From NCBI RefSeq assembly GCF_003384935.1, contig NZ_QTTQ01000011.1, positions 62,001 through 126,000 on the forward strand: 64,000 nucleotides of DNA. Direction: 5' to 3'. Each line of letters starts with the position of its first letter. Within the stretch, counting starts at the first letter, position 1. This DNA is from Lutibacter oceani. GTDB lineage: Bacteria > Bacteroidota > Bacteroidia > Flavobacteriales > Flavobacteriaceae. The position numbers and the translations under genes are program-made. The notes under the pieces were generated by a model. The model saw only the letters and a list, made by a program, of their open reading frames with translations. It was not told the origin of the DNA and did no database searches. Positions 25,811 to 33,895 of the stretch are shown here, piece by piece.

Positions 25811-25951
25811 TACTAAAAATTTAAACGCCAAAATTATATAAAAAAGTCGCAGCTTGTACCGCAATTAAAATTGTTATCTATTTAATAATATTTGACTTCT
25901 ATTTTTAAAAAATTCATAAATTGCACTCAAAATAAGAGTATATTTTACGAA

Positions 25952-28900
25952 ATGAAAAAAATAGCGCCATACAAACCAATTAATAAAGTTAGAATTGTAA
26001 CCGCAGCATCACTTTTTGATGGACACGATGCGGCAATAAATATCATGCGTAGAATTATTCAGGCTACTGGTGTTGAAGTAATTCATTTAGGTCATGACAG
26101 AAGTGTTGAAGAAGTTGTAAACTGTGCAATACAAGAAGATGCAAATGCAATAGCAATCACCTCTTATCAAGGTGGACATATGGAGTATTTTAAATATATG
26201 TTCGACTTATTGAAAGAAAAAGGTGCGTCACATATTAAACTATTTGGTGGCGGTGGCGGTGTAATTCTTCCTTCAGAAATTGAAAATTTAATGAATTATG
26301 GAATTACTCGTATTTATTCTCCCGATGACGGTAGAAGTATGGGCTTACAAGGAATGATAAATGATATGATTGAAAAATCTGATTTTCCAACAGGGGAAAT
26401 TATTGATTTTGATATTACAGATTTAATAAAAAAAGACTCCTTACAATTAGCAAAGGCTATTTCTGCAGCTGAAAACTTTTCAGAAAAACATATTGAATTT
26501 ATAAATGAAATAAGGGAACAAGCCAATAAATCTACAATTCCAGTTCTTGGTATTACTGGTACTGGAGGTTCTGGAAAATCATCTACTGTAGATGAATTGG
26601 TAAGAAGGTCTTTAATTGATTTTCCAGAAAAAACAATTGCAATAGTTTCTGTTGATCCTTCAAAACGCAAAACTGGTGGTGCTTTATTAGGTGATAGAAT
26701 TAGAATGAATTCAATAAAAAATGAACGTGTTTATATGCGCTCTTTGGCTACCAGACAATCAAATTTAGCATTGTCAAAACATGTTAGTGATGCAGTTGCT
26801 GTTTTAAAAGTTGCAGGTTTTGATTTGGTTATTTTAGAAACTTCAGGAATTGGACAAAGTGATACTGAAATTTTAGACCATTCCGATGTTTCATTATATG
26901 TAATGACTCCAGAATATGGAGCTGCAACTCAGTTAGAAAAAATTGATATGATTGATTTTGCAGATGTTATTGCCTTAAATAAATTTGATAAAAGAGGCTC
27001 TTTAGACGCCTTACGTGACGTTAAAAAACAATACCAACGCAATCATAATTTATGGGAAAACGATCTAGAATCAATGCCTGTTTACGGTACAATTGCTTCA
27101 CAATTTAACGACCCTGGAACCAATGAATTATACACAGTTCTTATTGAAAAGTTAAATAAAAAAACAGCAAATAATTTTAAAAGCACATTTATAATTGCTG
27201 ATAAATTAAGTGAAAAGCAATTTATTATTCCACCAAACAGAACACGTTATTTATCGGAAATAACAGAAAACAACAGGTCTTATACAAAAGCAAGTTTTCA
27301 ACAAAAAGAAGTTGCTCAAAAATTATATGGAATTTATAAAACCATTGAATCTGTATCAACTGTGAAACTGAGTCTGTCGAAGTTTGGAATAGAGGAAGAG
27401 AGTCTTCGACAAGCTCAGACTGACAATAATATCAACTTTTTAAAATTATTAATTTCAGAATTTGACCGGGTAAAAACGGATTTAAATCCACACAATTGGA
27501 ACATCATTTTAAACTGGGAAACAAAAAAACAATCGTACAAAAATGAATTGTATTCCTATAAAGTACGAGATAAAGTTATAAATATTAAAACGCATAGCGA
27601 ATCACTTTCTCATATTAAAATTCCAAAAATAGCCCTACCAAAATATGAAGCTTGGGGAGATTTGCTATTATGGAGTTTAGAAGAAAATGTTCCTGGAGAA
27701 TTCCCATATACATCTGGGCTTTTTCCCTTCAAAAGAACAGGTGAAGATCCAACTAGGATGTTTGCAGGTGAAGGAGGTCCAGAACGCACCAACAGACGTT
27801 TTCATTATGTAAGTTTAGGCTTACCCGCAAAACGTTTGTCAACTGCTTTCGATTCGGTTACTTTATATGGAAATGATCCTGATATTCGTCCAGATATTTA
27901 TGGTAAAATAGGAAATGCAGGTGTTTCTATTTGTTGTTTAGACGATGCAAAAAAACTATATTCAGGTTTTGATTTAACAAATCCTATGACATCTGTTTCA
28001 ATGACAATTAATGGTCCAGCACCAATGATGCTTGGTTATTTTATGAATGCAGCCATTGATCAGGAATGTGAAAAATACATTATTGAAAATGATTTAACAG
28101 CCGAAATTGAAGCGAAAATTGCTTCAATTTACAAGAAAAAAGGTGTTGAACGTCCAAAATACCAAGGAGAACTTCCTGAAGGAAATAATGGTTTAGGCTT
28201 GCTACTTTTGGGTGTAACCGGTGATGAAGTTTTACCTTCAACAGTTTATCAAAATATTAAAAATAAAACTATTGCTAAAGTCCGTGGAACAGTACAAGCC
28301 GATATTTTAAAAGAAGATCAGGCCCAAAATACATGTATTTTTTCAACTGAATTTGCGTTACGTTTAATGGGTGATGTTCAGGAATATTTTATTACAAATA
28401 ATGTACGAAATTTTTACTCAGTTTCAATTTCTGGGTATCATATTGCTGAAGCTGGTGCAAATCCAATTTCACAATTAGCGTTTACTTTAGCTAATGGTTT
28501 TACTTACGTGGAATACTATTTATCTAGAGGAATGGACATTAACAAATTTGGTCCAAACTTATCATTTTTCTTTTCAAACGGAGTAGATCCAGAATATGCA
28601 GTAATTGGACGCGTTGCTCGTAAAATTTGGGCAAAGGCACTAAAAAACAAGTACGGTGCAAACCCAAGAGCACAAATGTTAAAATATCATATTCAAACAT
28701 CTGGTAGAAGTTTACATGCCCAAGAAATAGACTTTAATGATATAAGAACAACCTTGCAAGCCTTGTATGCTATTTACGATAATTGCAACAGTTTACACAC
28801 CAATGCTTATGATGAAGCCATAACAACGCCAACCGAAGAAAGTGTTAGAAGAGCAATGGCTATTCAACTAATTATTAATAAAGAATTAGGATTAACCAAA

Positions 28901-29383
28901 AATGAAAATCCAATTCAGGGATCATTTATTATTGAAGAGTTAACAGATTTGGTTGAGGAAGCAATTTATGTTGAATTTGACAGGATTACCGAGCGTGGAG
29001 GCGTTTTAGGTGCCATGGAAACTATGTACCAACGTAGTAAAATTCAAGAAGAAAGCTTGTATTACGAAACCTTAAAACACAATGGTGATTTCCCAATTAT
29101 TGGTGTAAATACATTTTTAAGCAGTAAAGGATCTCCTACAATTTTACCACAAGAAGTAATTAGAGCAACTGAAGAAGAAAAACAATATCAAATAACTGTT
29201 GTTGAAAATTTAAATAAAGGTAATTCTGAAAAAGTTGAAAAACAACTTGATTTATTAAAGCAAAAAGCCATTAATAATGAAAACATTTTTGAGCAATTAA
29301 TGGAAGCTTGTAAAATTTGTTCAATTGGTCAAATTACGGAAGCTTTATTTGAAGTTGGCGGACAATATAGAAGGAATATGTAA
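25952..29383 (+). CDS. icmF: fused B12-dependent acyl-CoA mutase (IcmF type)
   Basis: 1143 residues from the ATG at 25952 ([15 protein letters not shown]); the upstream ATG at 25892 adds 20 atypical residues. Order: B12-binding domain (about 10-140; base-off motif '[12 protein letters not shown]' and '[11 protein letters not shown]'), a MeaI/G3E-type GTPase chaperone (P-loop '[10 protein letters not shown]', then '[11 protein letters not shown]' and 'ALNKFDKRG'), a linker, and the mutase barrel (about 560-1143). Substrate-pocket residues align as Phe604 ('[15 protein letters not shown]') and Gln792 ('DQAQNTCIF'), the isobutyryl-CoA mutase pair, instead of the Tyr/Arg pair of methylmalonyl-CoA mutase. 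It probably interconverts isobutyryl- and butyryl-CoA. The linker contains a palindromic DNA element (27361-27424). Confidence 0.92.
27361..27424 (+). repeat. palindromic repeat element inside the icmF linker
   Basis: Arms ACTGAGTCTGTCGAAG (27367-27382) and CTTCGACAAGCTCAG (27404-27418) pair with two differences around a 21-base AG-rich loop. The type CTTCGACAAGCTCAG...CTGAGCTTGTCGAAG is, to my recollection, a dispersed intergenic repeat in Flavobacteria. Here it is in frame and adds roughly 21 residues ([20 protein letters not shown]) between the GTPase and mutase domains. Confidence 0.65.
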
Positions 29384-29464: not shown

Positions 29465-31669
29465 TTATTTTTTTGGATGCACCAAATTCATTTCGTCAAT
29501 TAGGTTTTGTGCACCTGCATATTTATCAATAATAAATAACACATAACGAATATCTACCATAATACTTCTAACAATATCTGCGTCAAAATATAAATCACTC
29601 ATAGTTCCTTCCCAAGTTGTATCAAAAGCTAAACCTATCATATTTCCATAAGCATCAACAACCGGACTTCCAGAGTTACCACCGGTCATATGGTTAGTTG
29701 ATAAAATATTTACAGGCATTTTGCCATCTTCACCATACTGTCCATAATCTTTAGCTTTATATAAATCTTGTAATTTTTGTGGTACATCAAACTCGTAATC
29801 ACCTGGCACATATTTTTCCATTACACCTTTTAAATAAGTTTGAGTTGTATAATAAACTCCATCTTTTGGTTCATATCCCTGTACCATTCCGTAATTTACT
29901 CTTAACGTACTATTAGCATCTGGAAAAAAGCGTTTTTCTGGAAAAACTTCCATTAAAGCTGTCATATATTCTTTTTGAACAGCTTCAATTTGTAAATTTA
30001 ACTCTTGAAATTTCGGTTCAATTTTAGTGTAAAAAACAGTGTGTAATTCTTTACCAAATTTATATGCACTGTCTTCATTTAACTTTTTTATTACCTCTTC
30101 TGCAGACCCACTCAATAATTCCGTTGCATTTTCTAATGAAGTTAATTTAGAAGTTGCATAAACTTCATTAGTTAAATTGGTAAAATCTGCATTTACCATA
30201 TTAGAAGGCAAAAACTCTTTTGGAGATTTATTAGCATATAATTTAATCAATTTTTCAAAAACGGGCTTATCAACTTCAGCGCTGTAGTTCTTAAATTTAC
30301 CTTCAAAACTATTTAAAACAGCATCTCTTCTATTTTCAAAAGAAGCTTCTCCACCTCTTAAAAAAGCCTGTTCTAATTGATAAGCACTAAAAGTAATATT
30401 TAGCAGCTCAACATTCCTATAAGCAACTTCAACCCAATAATCACGAGCTAATGCAACACTTTCAATTTCTTTGTATAATGTTTCAAAATCAGATAATAAG
30501 GTTTTATAACCTACTAAATCTTTTTCTTCAACTATTTTAGAAAATTCAGCTTCAAGTTCACGTTTCTTTTCAATAGCATTTGTTTGATGAATTCCTTGAC
30601 TTTCACCAATCCATTTTTTCCAATAATTAGCAATAGAGGCAAATTTAGAAGCATATTGTATTTTAATTGCAGGGTCTTTACGCATATAAGTATCTACAAT
30701 TTTTAAGGCATTGTCTCTTATTTCAATTTTTGCAGGATTCAATACATTTACAATTTGATCTACACCAACTGCAGGTAAATACTCATTTGTACGTCCTGGA
30801 AAACCAAACACCAATGTAAAATCATTCTCTTCAACACCATCTAAAGATATCGGTAAATAGTGAGCAGGTTTGTAAGGTTTATTGTCTTTTGAATAGGCTG
30901 CTGGTCTGTTATTTTCATCCGCATAAATTCTAAACATAGAAAAATCTCCAGTATGGCGTGGCCACATCCAGTTATCAGTATCTGCACCAAATTTTCCGAT
31001 TGATGTTGGAGGTGCACCCACCAAACGAACATCTGTAAATTTTTCAGTTACAAATAATAAATATTGATTTCCTTTAAAAAAAGATCTTATATAAGAATCT
31101 TGCCACTCCTCTTTTTGAGCCCCTTTATTAACTTTTAGAATATTTTGATTGATTAATTTCATTTTTGAAGCCTCATCCATATCGTCAGACACACCTTCAA
31201 AAACTTGTTGTGTAACATCATCAATTCTTTTAATAAAAGTAGCGCTCAAACTTTCATTTGGTAATTCTTCATCATAACTCATTGCCCAAAAACCATCTTT
31301 TAAATAATCATGTTCAACCGATGAGTGTGACTGAATTACTCCATAACCACAATGGTGATTTGTTAATAACAATCCGTTTGGTGAAATAATTTCTGAAGTA
31401 CAACCTCCACCAAAATGCGCAATTGCATCTTTTAAACTTGAATTGTTCACATCATAAATATCATTTACAGACATTTTCATTCCTAATTGTGCCATTTCCT
31501 GAGCATTCATTCCTTCTAATAATGAAGGAATCCACATTCCTCCCTGAATATCTCTTGTATCTTGTATAACTGTAGTTTCAACTTTTTGAACTATCTGTGT
31601 TGTTTCTTGTACCGTTTTACAAGAAATTGTTAAAAGTGCTATTAATAAATAGAGTTTTATATATTTCAT
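29465..31669 (-). CDS. S46 family dipeptidyl peptidase, lipoprotein, variant specificity
   Basis: 734 residues. The signal 'MKYIKLYLLIALLTISCKT' has a lipobox Cys. Trypsin-like S46 fold: catalytic His in 'LLLTNHHCGYG', Asp region in 'GADTDNWMWPRHTGDFSMFR', and Ser in 'MTGGNSGSPVVDA'. These enzymes release dipeptides from peptide N-termini in the periplasm. The residue that decides P1 preference in known members (Arg in acidic-specific DPP11, Gly in DPP7) is Thr684 here ('LAFDTTWEG'), so it may differ from both. It is closely similar to the tandem gene just upstream, 24 bases away, pointing to duplication. Confidence 0.94.
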   Translation of the reverse strand: MKYIKLYLLIALLTISCKTVQETTQIVQKVETTVIQDTRDIQGGMWIPSLLEGMNAQEMAQLGMKMSVNDIYDVNNSSLKDAIAHFGGGCTSEIISPNGLLLTNHHCGYGVIQSHSSVEHDYLKDGFWAMSYDEELPNESLSATFIKRIDDVTQQVFEGVSDDMDEASKMKLINQNILKVNKGAQKEEWQDSYIRSFFKGNQYLLFVTEKFTDVRLVGAPPTSIGKFGADTDNWMWPRHTGDFSMFRIYADENNRPAAYSKDNKPYKPAHYLPISLDGVEENDFTLVFGFPGRTNEYLPAVGVDQIVNVLNPAKIEIRDNALKIVDTYMRKDPAIKIQYASKFASIANYWKKWIGESQGIHQTNAIEKKRELEAEFSKIVEEKDLVGYKTLLSDFETLYKEIESVALARDYWVEVAYRNVELLNITFSAYQLEQAFLRGGEASFENRRDAVLNSFEGKFKNYSAEVDKPVFEKLIKLYANKSPKEFLPSNMVNADFTNLTNEVYATSKLTSLENATELLSGSAEEVIKKLNEDSAYKFGKELHTVFYTKIEPKFQELNLQIEAVQKEYMTALMEVFPEKRFFPDANSTLRVNYGMVQGYEPKDGVYYTTQTYLKGVMEKYVPGDYEFDVPQKLQDLYKAKDYGQYGEDGKMPVNILSTNHMTGGNSGSPVVDAYGNMIGLAFDTTWEGTMSDLYFDADIVRSIMVDIRYVLFIIDKYAGAQNLIDEMNLVHPKK

Positions 31670-31693: not shown

Positions 31694-33895
31694 TTATTGT
31701 TTTGGGTGTACTAAAGTCATTTCTTCAATTAATCTTTTTGCTCCTGCATATTTATCAACTATAAATAATACATAGCGAATATCAACCATTATATTTCTGC
31801 AAATATCTGGATCATAATTCATATCACTCATTGTTCCTTCCCATACTCTATCGAAATTAAGACCTATTAAATTACCATAAGCATCAATTGCCGGGCTACC
31901 TGAATTTCCTCCAGTTGTATGGTTTGTACCTATAAAACAAACTGGCATTTTACCATTTTCTGCATACTGACCATAATCTTTTGCCTTGTATAAATCTTGC
32001 AATTTTTGAGGCACATCAAATTCATAATCACCAGGAACATATTTTTCCATAACACCTTTTAAATAGGTTGTTGTGTTATAATAAATACCATCTTTAGGCT
32101 CGTAACCTCTAACTTGTCCGTAAGTAACACGAAGTGTGCTATTTGCATCAGGAAAGAAACGTTTATTAGGAAAAACTTCCATTAATGCTTTCATATATTT
32201 TTTTTGAACTGCTGCTAATTCCATATTTAATTGTTGAAATTTAGGCTCAATTTTGTTATAAAAAATAGTGTGAAATTCTTTACCAAACTCGTAAGCTTTA
32301 TCCTCGTTCAACTTTTTAATTACTTCTTCGGCAGAACCCGTTAACATTTCTTGCGCTTCTTCTAAAGTTGTTAATTTAGAATTTGAATAAATCTCATTTG
32401 CTAACTCCTTAAAATTAACACCTTGCAAATTACTTGGTGAATAATTTTTAGGAGATTTTTGAGCATACAAAGCAACCAATTTTTCAAATACAGGTTTATC
32501 AACTTCGGCGCTGTAGTTTTTAAATTTGCTTTCGTAACTATTTAAAACAGCTTCTCTTCTACCTTCAAAAGCTTCCTCACCACCTCTTAAATAAGCTTGT
32601 TCTAATTGGTAGGCACTAAATGTAATATTTAACAATTCAACATTTCTGTAAGCGACTTCAACCCAATAATCACGTGCTAACGACACACTTTCAATTTCTT
32701 TGTATAATGTTTCAAAATCAGCTAATAATGTTGAATAACCAACCAAATCTTTCTCTGCTACTATATTAGAAAATTCAGTTTCTAAATCTCTTTTCTTTTG
32801 AATAGCATTCGACTTTTCAATCCCTTGATTTTCGCCAATCCATTTTTTCCAATAATTAGCAATTGAAGCAAATTTAGATGCATATTTAATTTTTATTGCA
32901 GGATCTTTACGCATATAAGTGTCTACAATTTTAAGAGCATTTTCTCTAACTTCAATTTTTGCCGGATTTAATACATTTACAATCTGATCTACTCCAACAG
33001 CTGGTAAATACTCATTTGTACGTCCTGGAAAACCAAAAACCAATGTAAAATCTTTTTCAGCAACACCGTCTAATGAAATTGGTAAATAATGATTTGGTTT
33101 ATATGGAACATTTTCTTTTGAATAATCTGCTGGTTTGTTATTTGCATCTGCATAAATTCTAAACATTGAGAAATCTCCAGTATGGCGTGGCCACATCCAA
33201 TTATCCGTGTCTGCACCAAACTTACCAATTGCCGAAGGTGGCGCACCAACCAATCTAACATCAGTGTACTTTTCTGTAACAAACAATATATATTGGTTTC
33301 CATCATAAAAGGACTTTATATTTGAATCTTGCCAGGTTTCTTTTTGAGCAGCTTTGTTTACTTTTAATATATTTTGATTGATTAGCTTCATTTTAGAAGC
33401 TTCATCCATTTCATTTGTAACTCCTTCAAAAACTTCAGAAGTTACATCGTCAATTCTTTTAATAAAAGTTACAGACATGTTTGGGTTTGCTAATTCTTCT
33501 TCGTAACTCATAGCCCAAAAACCATCTTTTAAATAATCGTGATCTACAGATGAATGCGATTGAATTGCTCCGTAACCACAATGGTGATTTGTTAACAACA
33601 ATCCGTTTGGAGAAATTATTTCTGAAGTACAACCTCCATTAAAATGTACAATTGCATCTTTTAAACTTGAATTATTTACATCGTAAATATCCTTGGCAGT
33701 TAGTTTGCTTCCTAACTGTTGCATTTCTGTTTCATTTACTCCTTCCAACAAAGAAGGAAGCCACATTCCGCCTTGTATTTCACGTGTATCAACCACGCTT
33801 GGGGTTTCAATTTTTACTGTTTCAGTAGTTTCCTGAACCGTTTTACACGAAACGATTATTAAGGCTAATAATAAATAAAGTTTTATATATTTCAT
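31694..33895 (-). CDS. S46 family dipeptidyl peptidase, DPP11-like
   Basis: 733 residues, with lipoprotein signal 'MKYIKLYLLLALIIVSCKT'. Catalytic motifs 'LTNHHCGYGAI', 'GADTDNWMWPRHTG' and 'TTGGNSGSPAIDA' are intact. The specificity position carries arginine (Arg683 in 'LNFDRVWEGTMSD'), as in Asp/Glu-specific DPP11. It would cleave dipeptides with acidic second residues for amino acid uptake. First gene of the tandem S46 pair and divergent from the DUF819 membrane protein gene. Confidence 0.95.
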   Translation of the reverse strand: MKYIKLYLLLALIIVSCKTVQETTETVKIETPSVVDTREIQGGMWLPSLLEGVNETEMQQLGSKLTAKDIYDVNNSSLKDAIVHFNGGCTSEIISPNGLLLTNHHCGYGAIQSHSSVDHDYLKDGFWAMSYEEELANPNMSVTFIKRIDDVTSEVFEGVTNEMDEASKMKLINQNILKVNKAAQKETWQDSNIKSFYDGNQYILFVTEKYTDVRLVGAPPSAIGKFGADTDNWMWPRHTGDFSMFRIYADANNKPADYSKENVPYKPNHYLPISLDGVAEKDFTLVFGFPGRTNEYLPAVGVDQIVNVLNPAKIEVRENALKIVDTYMRKDPAIKIKYASKFASIANYWKKWIGENQGIEKSNAIQKKRDLETEFSNIVAEKDLVGYSTLLADFETLYKEIESVSLARDYWVEVAYRNVELLNITFSAYQLEQAYLRGGEEAFEGRREAVLNSYESKFKNYSAEVDKPVFEKLVALYAQKSPKNYSPSNLQGVNFKELANEIYSNSKLTTLEEAQEMLTGSAEEVIKKLNEDKAYEFGKEFHTIFYNKIEPKFQQLNMELAAVQKKYMKALMEVFPNKRFFPDANSTLRVTYGQVRGYEPKDGIYYNTTTYLKGVMEKYVPGDYEFDVPQKLQDLYKAKDYGQYAENGKMPVCFIGTNHTTGGNSGSPAIDAYGNLIGLNFDRVWEGTMSDMNYDPDICRNIMVDIRYVLFIVDKYAGAKRLIEEMTLVHPKQ

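Follow-up and report, generated by a model that had tools for sequence, protein, structure and literature searches.

An in-frame REP-like inverted repeat in the IcmF linker of Lutibacter oceani and probable turnover of repeat families at the same site in Flavobacteriaceae

In the window—the 64,000-nucleotide stretch of Lutibacter oceani contig NZ_QTTQ01000011.1 analysed here—icmF contains, between its GTPase and mutase domains, an inverted pair of short repeat units that recur between genes of the same genome and are translated without loss of frame (Table 1). Across Flavobacteriaceae, this one site is held by units of several repeat families. The element is probably a captured REP-like inverted dimer, lying in a linker whose repeat content has been replaced repeatedly by other families, and its peptide a passenger. 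This reading is carried by the identity of the units with genomic repeats, their frame, the occupation of one site by several families, a codon signature, units nested within units, and one mosaic gene.

The in-frame element and its copies elsewhere in the genome

The listed icmF open reading frame (ORF), which starts at TTG 25892 and runs without interruption, encodes a product with the Pfam domains B12-binding, MeaB and MM_CoA_mutase. Its best solved relative is 4XC6, a fused isobutyryl-CoA mutase, and the nearest named icmF locus is from Lutibacter (Flavobacteriaceae, 85%). The arms given in the original prediction, CTGAGTCTGTCGAAG (27368–27382) and CTTCGACAAGCTCAG (27404–27418), were found, in frame and in an unbroken ORF. 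At full extent the arms were 22 nt each (27361–27382 and 27404–27425), 77% complementary and spaced 21 nt apart, while the right unit is better bounded at 27401–27425 (AGTCTTCGACAAGCTCAGACTGACA), with an AGTCT/AGACT stem of its own. The right unit bears the tag TGTC and the left reads TGTG; one relative (L028), with TGTCAAACTGAGCCTGTCGAAGT at the left-unit position, has TGTC on both. The right arm of the window ends in CTGAC; in relatives, units of repeat family R2 end in ATGAC and those of family R3 start with GTCAT.

Table 1. icmF and the parts of its in-frame element (window coordinates)
Feature	Position	Strand	Basis
icmF, encoding a fused GTPase/acyl-CoA mutase (start ATG 25949, 1144 aa)	25949..29383	+	ORF list, Pfam, 4XC6
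Complete element, in frame; two REP-type units as an inverted pair, tags outward, residues about 471–493	27361..27425	+	Inverted repeat, fold, frame
Left unit TGTGAAACTGAGTCTGTCGAAG, encodes VKLSLSK with overlapped codons	27361..27382	+	
Purine-rich loop, encodes FGIEEES; last three bases (27401–27403) are part of the right unit	27383..27403	+	
Right unit, minus-strand reading TGTCAGTCTGAGCTTGTCGAAGACT; plus strand encodes SLRQAQTD with overlapped codons	27401..27425	-	Intergenic copies in the same genome

Further copies in this genome had been predicted, and they are abundant: with up to 2 mismatches allowed, the genome (3.38 Mb) gave 31 places for CTTCGACAAGCTCAG, compared with 2 for a reversed control. 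Two of the 31 are the icmF arms; 27 of the 29 others lie outside any ORF of at least 80 aa and two inside, which supports the view that a palindromic repeat, usually intergenic, is translated here in the icmF frame. One match within an ORF (L004, 2 mismatches) is taken as chance. Some intergenic copies form inverted pairs oriented as in icmF (L009, L018), and one (L011) is identical to the right unit AGTCTTCGACAAGCTCAGACTGACA at 24/25 bases, by eye. Of the 24 places with the R2 pattern in the same genome, one is in the gene of an AMP-binding enzyme and the other 23 lie outside ORFs.

Genome-wide searches covered four of six motifs: R1 was found in 24/40 genomes (a copy count that left out the genus genomes G004, G013, G014, G015 and G025), R2 in 33/38, R3 in 19/38 and R4 in 15/17, and the reversed controls gave 0, save for a single match in the R1 search. 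By coordinates, at least three R3 places lie in icmF and seven in a menE-like gene. The highest genome count (58) was that of G019, in which CTGAGCCTGTCGAAG copies stand exactly 240 bp apart on two contigs (C34:13035–14249, six copies; C160:110311–111765, seven copies), a tandem array bearing the repeat.

Length, repeat content and codons of the IcmF linker

The original prediction saw the segment as a private addition of about 21 residues, absent from most close relatives, and in this it was wrong: the linker of the window is 53 aa, measured from the YGIYKT to the NPHNW anchor, and all 218 rows labelled Flavobacteriaceae have one of similar length, at least 48 aa. After removal of duplicate rows (L020, L050, L130 and L131), 237 linkers remained, of which 226 were 48–75 aa and 11 were 30–36 aa long; 233 were distinct, the four further pairs that share a linker including none with a repeat match. 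The 11 short linkers, about 17 residues shorter, came from seven of the eight genomes of other families in the order, one Chitinophaga-labelled row and three rows without a family name, and none from a Flavobacteriaceae-labelled row. Long linkers also occurred in L046 (another family), in the Crocinitomix-labelled L093 and L099, and in the Chitinophaga-labelled L086. Within the family sample, the linker query matched in 118/149 genomes. The Cupriavidus enzyme 4XC6 is about 20 residues shorter at the linker site in pairwise alignment. Taken together, the long linkers of the family rows, the short ones of the 11 others and the shorter 4XC6 suggest that the linker gained about 17 residues or more, either at the base of Flavobacteriaceae or before it. 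Species differ in the repeat family filling the linker, not in the presence of the linker. In one genome of another family (G046, contig C2:434763–438124), icmF is seemingly split around residues 580–645, downstream of the linker.

A strict scan with six motifs gave 46 matches in 39/237 linkers, all 39 distinct, compared with 0 matches in flanking coding DNA totalling 104,028 bases. All motifs except R1 had been picked after the linkers were read, and synonymous recoding is for that reason the fairer control; in 100 runs it gave a mean of 1.73 sequences and a maximum of 5, against 39 observed. The recognisable units belong to at least four families (R1–R4) confirmed elsewhere in these genomes. 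The 39 linkers comprise that of the window, those of 19 genomes of its genus and of 12 genomes of 12 other coded genera, and those of seven records: two from Flavobacterium, one each from Lutibacter and Polaribacter, and three without a genus name. With looser thresholds, 41 of 47 matches in 110 complete icmF genes fell at residues 465–500; this set includes L050, which repeats L034, the linker of G021 being identical to that of this named Lutibacter record. In R1, R2 and R3 the left unit is in plus and the right unit in minus orientation, except in L055, L060 and L062, where the right-hand unit, too, is plus. In three further linkers (L107, from Winogradskyella, L182 and L247) an additional peptide follows QNDK (AISTEGGTTEEESQ, GGTTEEESQ and VIPTEGGTTDEESQ, respectively), apparently a further repeat family.

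The same segment in distant genera had been named beforehand as evidence against capture. It was found in part: two orthologues without a genus name, from outside the host genus set (L070 and L114), share the arm type, which does not refute capture, given that the site is occupied recurrently.

At the strict thresholds, 198/237 linkers held no unit, so descent of those linkers from repeats is a matter of inference. The same figure bears on the idea that the hairpin, placed as it is between the GTPase and mutase domains, serves to pause translation or acts on mRNA stability. The predicted RNA fold of 27355–27430 is stable, if not extreme (-21.9 kcal/mol, z = -2.5), and the site lies between two folded domains, as that idea would have it; since 198 orthologues are without a recognisable unit, however, a structure like this is not a general feature of the linker, and a role of this kind is very unlikely.

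Another reading is chance or convergence at the protein level, with the linker peptide itself selected and its repeat-like DNA coincidental. For the codon comparison, 13 orthologues were picked by the peptide ILKQVQ[ND][ND], not by DNA, and replaced an earlier R2 group that was biased by having been picked by DNA match. The Leu codon was CTG in 11/13 (background 7/132; Fisher p = 2e-10), the second Gln codon CAG in 13/13 (15/88; p = 5e-9) and the last Asp codon GAC in 11/12 (17/80; p = 4e-6), all three tests ignoring relatedness. Among the 13 genes, the pairings required by the two stems of the repeat were seen (ATT with AAT in 8/8, ATC with GAT in 3/3); in a wider list of 23, L179 breaks the pairing (ATT with GAT). 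In the own-type linker group, synonymous codon conservation was not raised. As the linkers retain rare codons at the positions for which the repeat calls for them, we conclude that these linker codons are dictated by the repeat DNA and not by the peptide. Convergence can point to LSLSK..LRQAQ and ILKQVQND, which we read as plausible helix formers, but it is contradicted already by these codons and their agreement with the stem, and further by the recoding null (mean 1.7 against 39 sequences) and by the copies of the same DNA between genes, so that it is hardly credible.

Probable turnover at the linker and at two further genes

On a linker-free IcmF tree, the genus's own-type linkers, eight in number, did not form one clade (AU p = 3.5e-6), although this was a quick tree from which the long branches L049, L106, L114 and L115 were left out, and the group was named after the first tree had been seen; exchange within icmF, moreover, weakens arguments from trees. 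One mosaic gene was found. Compared per interval, the icmF genes of G002 (L027) and G023 (L033; a genome with 7% contamination) were 76–100% identical outside the linker and 44–64% identical at residues 466–505. The linker of L027 is own-type, and residues 492–520 were closest to L031 (G016; 92 and 91%). From these identities, the gene looks like the product of a short-tract exchange, in effect a linker swap.

Own-type linkers went together with a high number of own-type repeats in the genome (7 vs 25 genus genomes, p = 0.0005, with icmF copies removed and kinship ignored). A counter-example is G032, which has 38 own-type copies and another linker type, and for R2 the corresponding trend between copy number and linkers was not significant (p = 0.056).

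Nested units were found at the linker and in purL. In the icmF linker of L035, an R2 unit is interrupted by a 21-nt block, and with the block removed a perfect 26-nt R2 unit is restored; in L250, removal of a 24-nt R4-like block leaves an outer unit with 1 mismatch. In purL, 24-nt blocks lie inside an R1 unit in L298 and L306, and removal again leaves 1 mismatch, the outer purL unit having been picked after purL was read. By comparison, 80 draws of coding-DNA pieces gave 8–12 mismatches. The linkers of L038 and L248 keep 5 outer mismatches after removal of the inner block, and purL of L293 and L296 does not resolve as nested units.

The purL gene, with FGAR-AT domains, houses one in-ORF R1 copy of the window's own genome. 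A search of 25 genus genomes gave 22 genus rows; read off the alignment, 10 of these have a unit at this site and 12 have none, nor do six rows of other families. L307 and L308 did not align. A motif scan gave matches in 12/30 rows; among them, those of L288 and L299, loose and at nt 28, are taken as chance. About 60 codons upstream there is a second in-frame repeat site, seen in six rows (L280, L290, L294, L296, L298 and L300). Two R3 units (G012:C1:560822–560849 and G006:C196:37498–37525), which by their distance from the purL match are probably inside the gene, mark a candidate third site further downstream.

The R2 unit inside the AMP-binding enzyme (Pfam AMP-binding) of the own genome is read as HAELVSASH; we read the enzyme as menE-like. 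Its loop scores a unit in 18/22 genus rows and 0/8 rows from other families, two of the six motifs used having been written after the rows were seen. Both purL and the menE-like gene are thus probably subject to the turnover proposed for the icmF linker.

A simpler history would have a single palindrome enter icmF in an ancestor and then diverge by vertical descent, the differences between linkers being decay products, a possibility that the portions of PMC3767692 drawn on here raise for RPE-4, RPE-6 and RPE-7 of Rickettsia. Several observations suit it: the segment varies little in length among the 218 family rows, every one of which has it, the positions and frames of the units coincide, and a loop with acidic residues after G[IL] is common to linkers with other arm types. 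In G023, moreover, both R3 places are genic, one in icmF and one in the menE-like gene, so that no intergenic source of R3 was seen there. Decay of one insertion does not, however, readily yield near-exact copies of different genomic families at one spot, own-type linkers scattered on the tree, units nested within units, or filled and empty alleles at purL, and we consider it unlikely. The purL alleles, the multi-family site and the nested units argue instead for repeated occupation.

Likeness to known repeats and a proposed mechanism

REPIN and REP-RAYT systems are inverted pairs of REP units that occur in many copies. The icmF element resembles them in being an inverted pair of REP units; it differs in that a profile search of the own genome for the Y1 transposase (PF01797) found none, 5/14 control genomes being positive. 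Among the 30 genomes searched (own included), 15 had PF01797 and 15 did not; given this and its absence here, a RAYT is not favoured as the mover.

A further likeness is to CGTC-tagged REPs, as defined by Di Nocera et al. 2013 (PMC3733652). In the portions of that paper drawn on here, Bacteroidetes are among the phyla, the repeats are mostly intergenic, some intragenic ones lie in frame in enzymes, and different REPs occupy about the same recB site in two Xanthomonas species (PMC3733652). The units described here share with them the CGTC/TGTC tag, the short palindromic unit, the inverted dimers and the mostly intergenic location. The R2 unit of relatives (ATTCTGAA-CTTGT-TTCAGAAT) also fits their 8–9 bp stem with a 4–5 nt loop, which the unit of the window does not show, pairing over 5 bases before a mismatch step (by eye). 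Unlike them, one site is here held by several families across many genera, and the same portions of PMC3733652 name neither icmF, purL nor menE.

The likeness to Rickettsia palindromic elements (RPEs) drawn in the original prediction is apt, RPE-4, RPE-6 and RPE-7 being closest (PMC3767692, PMC3733652). As far as the parts of PMC3767692 used here describe them, these are in-frame palindromes at the same loci in rickettsial orthologues, sometimes from different RPE groups; an ATGAC motif is frequent among RPEs, solvent-exposed positions are reported, and the choice between a hot spot and a common origin is left open for these three groups. Fusions with RPEs are reviewed in PMC10969869, likewise drawn on in part. 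The icmF element is similar in lying in frame in an existing gene and in having many genome copies (PMC3767692). Its host, however, belongs to Flavobacteriaceae and not Rickettsia, its units are mostly intergenic, and the two are likened by description, not by sequence; and, compared with the parts of PMC3767692 cited, there are here several families at one site, empty alleles and nested units. The last three features favour a hot spot over a common origin, and because repeated occupation is seen in a family with named strains, the choice between a hot spot and one diverged insertion becomes testable. The kind of element is known, then; what is new is that, in Flavobacteriaceae, different families recurrently occupy the same enzyme loops. 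Text searches of the open-access literature found no paper for a repeat sequence or the AELVSAS peptide.

We propose that the tagged REP-like inverted dimer sits in frame between two IcmF linker helices, at a spot that would tolerate extra residues and so act as a landing loop. After the putative insertion at or before the base of the family, the repeat content would have been swapped repeatedly for other REP-like families, and the data suggest two routes. In one, species exchange linker alleles over short tracts; in the other, a resident unit receives a new one in its hairpin loop, the inserted length being a multiple of 3 nt. The linker peptide would most likely be a tolerated and neutral passenger. 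An AlphaFold model built with 35 sequences (mean pLDDT 59.3 overall, 82–89 in blocks of residues 451–520) places the repeat-coded stretch, with a short helix at 483–489, between helices 443–470 and 495–509; weak as the model is outside the linker, such a placement would agree with a position at a helical hairpin's tip. It is conceivable, though we hold it only tentatively, that the loops of IcmF, PurL and the MenE-like enzyme are self-renewing landing pads across the family, in which the resident REP hairpin is the preferred target of the next REP family, with in-frame lengths and a cycle of nesting, trimming and allelic exchange.

Repeated occupation of this sort provides a route by which mobile-type DNA can alter enzyme loops without breaking genes, and is a warning that such linker peptides need not mirror conservation at the protein level.

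Elsewhere in the window, at 29465–31669 and 31694–33895 on the minus strand, two adjacent genes encode similar proteins of 734 and 733 aa, a tandem paralogue pair that we take to be S46-type peptidase-like.
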